Part shown: positions 3,200 to 19,706 of the stretch, in pieces | Numbering within the stretch: the stretch's first letter is position 1 | How the letters are laid out: every line of letters starts with the position of its first letter | NCBI GenBank assembly: GCA_012839235.1 | Contig: DUNS01000161.1 | Span: forward strand, 1-33,580 | Origin: Clostridiales bacterium | GTDB taxonomy: Bacteria; Bacillota; Clostridia; Lachnospirales; Lachnospiraceae | Direction: 5' to 3' | Length of the DNA: 33,580 nucleotides | Notes under the pieces: generated by a model | What the model was told of the DNA's origin: nothing | The model's database searches: none | The model's input: only the letters and a program-made list of their open reading frames with translations | Position numbers and translations under genes: made by a program

Positions 3200-3398
3200 A
3201 TTACTATTCAGCCTAATAAAACTATAGGATAAGGCTAGGGGAAAATGATTCCCATGGTGAGTATTGGATTACGTCGGTACTTGGGTTCTGTTTTATAGAA
3301 CCCTATGTACCGCTACGTAATACATCTAAGCGAGAGCGTCTCACCAAGGGAACATTTCTCCTCTAGCCTCTTCAAGTACCTGAAGGCTGAATAGTAAT
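3200..3398 (+). repeat. Structured rod-like element, copy 1
   Basis: This 199-nt intergenic element folds as one long interrupted hairpin. From outside in, the paired arms are 3200-3214/3384-3398 (15 bp, perfect), 3233-3247/3353-3368 (one bulge and one G-U), 3251-3253/3348-3350, 3256-3261/3340-3345, 3268-3274/3315-3321, 3275-3280/3307-3312 (CGGTAC/GTACCG) and 3283-3289/3297-3303, closed by the loop GTTTTAT. The motif AAGCGAGAGCG (3328-3338) is unpaired in this fold or forms a tiny GAGA-loop hairpin. The same plan recurs at 19517-19706 with different stem sequences. The plus orientation is assigned from the single G-U pair and is tentative. It could be an untranslated RNA or a structure-constrained repeat. 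Confidence 0.75.
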
Positions 3399-19516: not shown

Positions 19517-19706
19517 GTTTGTTTACATCAAAATGTAAAATCAAGTGACATTAAACATATCTCAATGAGCAAATGTTTTTTAATCGTCGGTACTTAGAAC
19601 ACGTATTATGTGTTCTTATGTACCGTTACGATTAAAATCAAGCGAGAGCGTGTTGCTCATAAAATATGTTTCATGACACTTGTATATAGCTAGATTTGTA
19701 AACAAC
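19517..19706 (+). repeat. Structured rod-like element, copy 2
   Basis: This element lies in the 337-bp gap between rpsU and yqfC. It folds like the element at 3200-3398. Paired arms are 19518-19527/19697-19705, CAAGTG/CACTTG (19542-19547/19677-19682), AAACATAT/ATATGTTT (19553-19560/19664-19671), ATGAGCAA/TTGCTCAT (19565-19572/19653-19660), 19578-19587/19628-19637, CGGTAC/GTACCG (19588-19593/19620-19625) and AGAACAC/GTGTTCT (19596-19602/19610-19616), closed by GTATTAT. AAGCGAGAGCG recurs at 19640-19650. A small extra hairpin, TTTACAT/ATGTAAA (19522-19539), competes with the outer arm. The stem sequences differ from copy 1 but still pair. Confidence 0.75.

Follow-up and report, generated by a model that had tools for sequence, protein, structure and literature searches.

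The element that occurs twice in the window (the whole stretch of DNA analysed, 33,580 nucleotides from a Lachnospiraceae draft genome) is both a piece of MITE-like mobile DNA and the bearer of a structured core. We consider it fairly likely that such copies are non-autonomous DNA elements served by transposases in trans, that they carry a conserved, strand-specific structured RNA module, and that this module meets a host factor. In our judgement the new feature is a defined RNA-like module that is associated with several types of MITE end across one bacterial family.

Two copies of the element in the window

The original prediction placed elements at 3200–3398 (199 nt) and 19517–19706. Both are found at those positions, and the stems and conserved core letters that it quoted are present in the window copies. 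The parts of the two elements are:

3200..3398, + strand: element copy 1 (L001), whole, end type A, 199 bp
3200..3213, + strand: copy 1, left terminal inverted repeat ATTACTATTCAGCC; young copies have GTTACTRTTCA...
3247..3359, + strand: copy 1, structured core; full match to covariance model R1 at 113.3 bits, the copy having been used in building R1
3275..3312, + strand: copy 1, tip hairpin CGGTAC...GTACCG, with an internal loop and a 7-nt apex
3330..3337, + strand: copy 1, side mini-hairpin GC-GAGA-GC with a GNRA loop
3385..3398, + strand: copy 1, right terminal inverted repeat GGCTGAATAGTAAT
19517..19706, + strand: element copy 2, inner arms read as subfamily B, ends unrecognised by the typing script
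19559..19671, + strand: copy 2, structured core; full match to R1 at 106.1 bits, the copy having been used in building R1
19588..19625, + strand: copy 2, tip hairpin, stem AGAACAC/GTGTTCT
19642..19649, + strand: copy 2, side mini-hairpin GC-GAGA-GC

Both copies fold strongly as RNA on either strand (z –7.3 to –11.4). The z scores are –11.35 (+) and –10.16 (–) for copy 1, and –7.33 (+) and –10.28 (–) for copy 2; on each strand none of 200 shuffles equalled the native sequence.

Searched as plain DNA against the 2.83-Mb draft genome to which it belongs, copy 1 has at least 44 matches, with 40 of 66 candidates scored; among the 44 are the copy itself, the reverse match that it makes as a palindrome, and matches broken into pieces. 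The corresponding number for copy 2 is 21, again with self and split pieces included. By eye the copies of this genome fall into two subfamilies. Subfamily A has GTGAG/CTCAC arms flanking the core and ends like GTTACTATTCAGCC, while subfamily B has GCAAC/GTTGC arms and inner ends like CTTTGTTAATTTGCA. From our reading of its sequence, copy 2 appears to have the inner arms of subfamily B. The outer arms of the two window copies had been called unrelated; they do differ, but through subfamily membership (A ends in one, B inner arms in the other), and it is because the copies belong to different subfamilies that the arms look unrelated. The divergence of the stems has to be qualified in a similar manner. 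The compensatory change is real, but a given stem is not confined to its copy, since many of the DNA matches to copy 1 are 78–87% identical to it, arms included. The contrast originally drawn with transposons, whose copies would share stem sequence as these would not, is not supported, because copies of one subfamily share much of it.

Covariation and the fold of the core

The core has the architecture of a three-way junction, in which a long arm with an internal loop and an apex is joined by a hairpin of two base pairs with a GNRA loop. Alignment A1 comprises 31 cores, being 41 loci of the own genome minus four duplicates and six atypical loci (L004, L010, L017, L020, L026 and L031) in which there is an additional tip or the right side is changed. 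Compensatory change is seen at 24 of the 33 pairs. The fraction of cells paired is 95.7%, compared with 30.9–43.2% for slid partners and 79.8% for shuffled ones; the covariation score, 0.478, falls to 0.197 on shuffling and to 0.102 or less on sliding. The test favours the structure, which was derived from the same alignment. Among 115 matches to R1 from 99 loci compensatory change extends to 31 of the 33 pairs, and 95.2% of cells pair compared with 27.5–41.1% when slid; the alignments A2–A4 were fitted to R1, so that pairing is favoured in them. The covariation score was unreached by 500 shuffles of either the 31-row or the 115-row alignment, and in the 115 rows 23 of the 500 did reach one measure out of five, that of further pair types. 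That the stems covary between copies is thus upheld on both sets.

Three of the atypical loci (L004, L020 and L026) have a tandem duplicate of the tip hairpin within the core, giving a forked tip. An extra alternative hairpin lies 3′ of the GNRA element on the right side of L010, L017 and L020, and is alike in the three. At L174:4445-5090 there is a tandem run of four cores with a period of 178 bp.

Three model alignments provide a pool of 263 distinct rows, of which 23 have no paired four-base loop in the side hairpin. In the other 240 the loop is GNRA in 232 and its third base is a purine in 239. The GNRA loops found are GAGA, GAAA, GCAA, GGAA, GGGA, GCGA and GTAA, closed by a stem that itself varies (GC/GC 179, GT/AC 44, AC/GT 8, AT/AT 3, TG/CA 1, and a few with G-U). 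Read on the + strand, the cells contain 202 G-U against 81 A-C, an excess of about 2.5-fold from which the fixed apical U-G is excluded. A further 182 cells in the pooled alignments are G-A or A-G, and in A2 the G-A cells lie mostly in adjacent columns of the lower long stem. Tandem sheared G-A pairs in RNA occupy neighbouring positions. Judged from the alignments, the GNRA loop and the bias of G-U over A-C favour an RNA of the window's + strand. Together with the covariation they support the proposal of selection on single-strand structure. Since the alignments are model-fitted and the scan pattern prescribes part of the tip, the data for the arm and the GNRA hairpin outweigh those for the tip. 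The frequency of G-U is low, at 202 of 7,761 canonical cells, and this counts against the explanation that we prefer, for RNA alignments are usually richer in G-U.

The family had not been recognised when the element was first described, and searches of Rfam 15 at the gathering cut-off gave no match for the window or for 10 other loci. A permissive Rfam search returned two hits far under the cut-off, with E values of 6.5 and 7.2.

Occurrence of the core in genomes

How widespread is the element? The covariance model R1 was used to search genomes at the level of the own genome, genus, family and class; the numbers of matches per genome are lower bounds, with up to 111, 12 and 9 candidates scored for genus, family and class, respectively. 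R1 has 58 matches in the own draft genome. It matches 19 of 34 genomes of the genus, own included, with up to tens per genome and at least 111 in G024, where all 111 scored candidates are matches. Of 299 genomes drawn over the family, with at most 12 candidates scored in each, 96 have matches, and the element occurs in about one third of the family's sampled genera. In the class, 10 of 391 genomes are positive, own included, and all 10 belong to the window's family. The covariance model has therefore found further copies both in the own genome and over the family, with pairs that covary.

A pattern scan of named genomes, which prescribes some letters of the tip, gave at least 119 stretches, and the titles of 80 of these are mostly Lachnospiraceae with other Clostridia. 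Cultured gut species such as Coprococcus catus and Roseburia porci are included among the carriers by record title, and Mobilitalea sibirica DSM 26468 and Anaerobium acetethylicum GluBS11 are further cultured carriers. Among the 80 titled matches listed, five (L088, L096, L113, L118 and L156) are draft bins of Gastranaerophilales, Muribaculaceae or Muribaculum; these may be misnamed, or the range of the element may be wider. There was no blastn match to plasmid records with one G024 element as query, nor to phage records with copy 1 as query, and two viral contigs match both the scan pattern and R1.

Ends, target duplications and empty sites

The elements have terminal inverted repeats, target site duplications and empty orthologous sites, features by which MITEs are recognised, and from this clear anatomy we infer that they are mobile. 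The close copies in G024 have sharp termini with ends like GTTACTGTTCACACCC/GGGTGTGAACAGTAAC (20 stretches, several cut at contig ends). For type A ends (n = 38) the flanking 8-mers are 73.4% identical, compared with 30.6% when shuffled and 40.1% in the highest shuffle. The 8-bp duplication is exact in 11 of the 38, and has at most one mismatch in 19, the exact ones included. Flanks of 7 and 9 are barely above the shuffles, and those of 5, 6 and 10–12 are not above them. The duplications of the other types are less sharp. Type C ends, TAGGNAATTGCGAAAC, have duplications of 10–12 bp (n = 30; exact in 5 at 10, 3 at 11 and 3 at 12). Type B ends, GRTTNGGGTGTCAAAAG, have duplications of 6–7 bp (n = 20; exact in 6 at 6 and 3 at 7), with an end point that was picked after viewing the flanks and with lengths 6 and 8 alone beating every shuffle. 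The different lengths of duplication among the end types would point to different transposases.

All three types of end were found as pairs by pattern, and the core accompanies each of them. The 273 model matches were reduced to 254 by dropping short or repeated rows, and the 243 of length 100–125 were placed in a tree; 94 of these copies could be typed by their ends and 149 could not. Cores cluster by end type, with 10 label changes where shuffling gives a mean of 50, for the 94 typed of 243. End type is, however, partly confounded with genome, since the copies in a given genome have the same end type, type D being that of G003. The G003 copies (L063 and L258–L284) have a fourth arm type, GAAGAACCGATAGG..., and in many a further tip hairpin precedes the core on its 5′ side. 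In the same genome there is a local array of repeated left-arm-plus-tip units (G003:C1:931459-932312).

The site of copy 1 matches 32 loci of relatives, of which 20 were fetched, and 18 of these are without a core. One of the remaining two has a type B core elsewhere in the same gap, and the other is cut and uninformative. Among the 18 coreless loci is one that holds a coreless A-like element (L299). Copy 1 has no visible target duplication, which counts against our preferred explanation; presumably it is old. At the site of copy 2 the distance between flanking matches, as read from the hit coordinates, is 82 bases in G021, 95 in G028 and 189 in G003, where the corresponding distances in the window are 300, 282 and 331. 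Short A elements of 57–183 bp are found without all or part of the core, as flagged by a rough letter pattern that overlooks some cores (L020, L064), and several of them keep their duplications (exact in L245, L246 and L318). Thus the core is not required for all movement, unless it was lost later. The view that the element is unlike an ordinary transposon remnant finds no support, since young copies carry terminal inverted repeats and 8-bp duplications, and relatives have empty sites.

Among the end matches listed, three IS66 loci and a 4.2-kb span, no autonomous element with these ends was found. IS66 was rejected as the partner, the three loci being without paired ends and G000 and G004 without an IS66 match. 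The 4.2-kb span between type C ends was rejected as an autonomous element, as it consists of two separate small elements around other ORFs.

The arms of some copies (L141, L016, L033 and L003) extend as copy-specific inverted repeats in the flanks. In L141 these are about 40 bp long, and those of L003, a copy at the end of a contig, may be an artefact of assembly. Three type C elements (L337, L338 and L341) have other hairpin sequences, with many GCTTAGCGAGG-like motifs, that take the place of the tip or enlarge it.

Comparison with known systems

IStrons carry an RNA domain between the ends of a DNA transposon. The element here differs from them in being without a transposase gene and without an Rfam match, and so without a group I intron hit. 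The REP/RAYT system includes a Y1 transposase. REP palindromes are given as 20–40 bp (PMC3733652), compared with about 200 bp here.

To judge from their descriptions, the nearest described elements are the bacterial MITEs with stem-loop transcripts (PMC2229807) and the bcr repeats of Bacillus cereus (PMC3446304). As described there, the MITEs Correia/NEMIS, ERIC, RUP, CIR and YPAL measure about 100–200 bp and have little or no coding content. Terminal inverted repeats and target duplications are present in most of them, and the transcripts are predicted to form long stem-loops (PMC2229807). Going by those descriptions, the element here is set apart by its defined branched core, GNRA loop, family-wide covariation and several end types. 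The repeats bcr1–bcr18 of the B. cereus group are intergenic, and about half of the copies are expressed; bcr1–3 are MITE-like, whereas bcr10 and bcr18 have conserved secondary structure, so that by description the two traits are named apart in that group and combined in one element here (PMC3446304). Stem-loop containing repeat families are bacterial repeats whose members are predicted to share a fold. The families described for Clostridium perfringens and C. tetani are Clop-1 and Clot-1 to -3, and none of those described there is from Lachnospiraceae (PMC2267715). In the open-licence literature on MITEs and structured RNAs of Lachnospiraceae and Clostridi-, the titles and opening lines of abstracts do not describe the present family.

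It would be a large RNA-like family outside Rfam 15 that links mobile DNA to RNA structure, with the fold kept in elements whose movement seemingly needs the ends alone. A binding partner, if found, would tell why non-coding elements retain an RNA. The evolution of hairpins could be followed in the many copies, which serve as natural replicates.

Selection as RNA, as DNA or not at all

The main rival to an RNA module is that the core was selected as single-stranded DNA or a cruciform during transposition or replication, as a hairpin recognised by a DNA enzyme. This would accord with pairing that is nearly all Watson–Crick (7,559 cells against 202 of G-U), with the resemblance of the elements to mobile DNA and with their even orientation to genes, and GNNA-type mini-hairpins are very stable as DNA too. 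Yet a purine at the third position of 239 in 240 loops is the GNRA rule of RNA, and the 2.5-fold excess of G-U over A-C belongs to one strand. Moreover the tipless derivative L246 has an exact target duplication, and the core is common to end types with different lengths of duplication. On this evidence we regard selection as DNA as rather improbable, though it is the strongest of the alternatives.

Still less probable, in our view, is that the core has no function, its paired changes being made by hairpin-templated repair (quasipalindrome correction) and the swapping of whole helices among copies. A rough tree of the cores, which has little signal, requires 806 double against 132 single pair changes, a ratio that exceeds expectation for stepwise RNA evolution. 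In G003 some of the extra 5′ hairpins and two cores (L263 and L284) are now perfect palindromes by eye, and the long copy-specific inverted flanks noted above point the same way. Some of the double changes probably do come from exchange of helices between copies and from repair templated by hairpins. But correction would erase asymmetry, and yet nearly every one of the 31 copies collected without a pattern still has the TT/TAT internal loop, and the one-sided GNRA hairpin is kept in 232 of 240 scored loops. The internal loop letters of A2 and A4 carry no weight in this comparison, because the scan pattern prescribed them.

We therefore return to a MITE-like element with an RNA module. Elements of about 200–270 bp would move through their terminal inverted repeats using transposases provided in trans. 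The module would act as an RNA made by transcription from outside the element, which has no promoter of its own that we could see, and this RNA may meet a host factor such that insertions become tolerable or useful. A benefit of this kind would explain why different end types keep the module. As the fold seems dispensable for some movement, a further advantage is needed to account for a core that accompanies several end types, and this could be either that the host tolerates the insertion or that the element is helped. The arms have probably been shaped in addition by DNA-level changes that perfect palindromes. A more specific and tentative proposal is that the structured RNA, a single fold with a GNRA loop, has turned into a portable module of DNA transposons. 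Elements with several types of MITE end, in about one third of the genera sampled in the family, would carry it because RNA from flanking transcription binds a common host factor, raising the survival or movement of the carrier element.

Gene context

Among 254 copies the orientation of core and genes is even (++ 64, – – 75, – + 38, + – 38), the other 39 being at edges with no ORF on one side. There is no clear promoter peak, in bins counted without a shuffled control, and no clear excess of U-runs on either strand that would indicate a terminator. With even orientation and no clear promoter or terminator peak there is therefore no sign of action in cis within an mRNA, and a cis-regulatory role, judged by orientation, is unsupported.

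Stop codons lie within 60 nt in 69 of the 113 genes that face the 3′ side of the core, compared with 20 of 102 that face the 5′ side (Fisher p 6e-10), and this proximity is strongest in copies without recognised ends (54/105 against 15/105). Many copies just past stop codons might suggest an ordinary terminator or another gene-linked regulatory hairpin, but this is most improbable given the lack of a clear U-run excess on either strand, an orientation that is not fixed, and an orthologous site that is without the core in 18 of 20 loci of relatives.

Divergent pairs of cores are also found, with gaps of about 170–390 bp (L101, L104, L125, L129, L145 and L148), and one such pair is present in the own genome, at C22:20792 and C22:21108.
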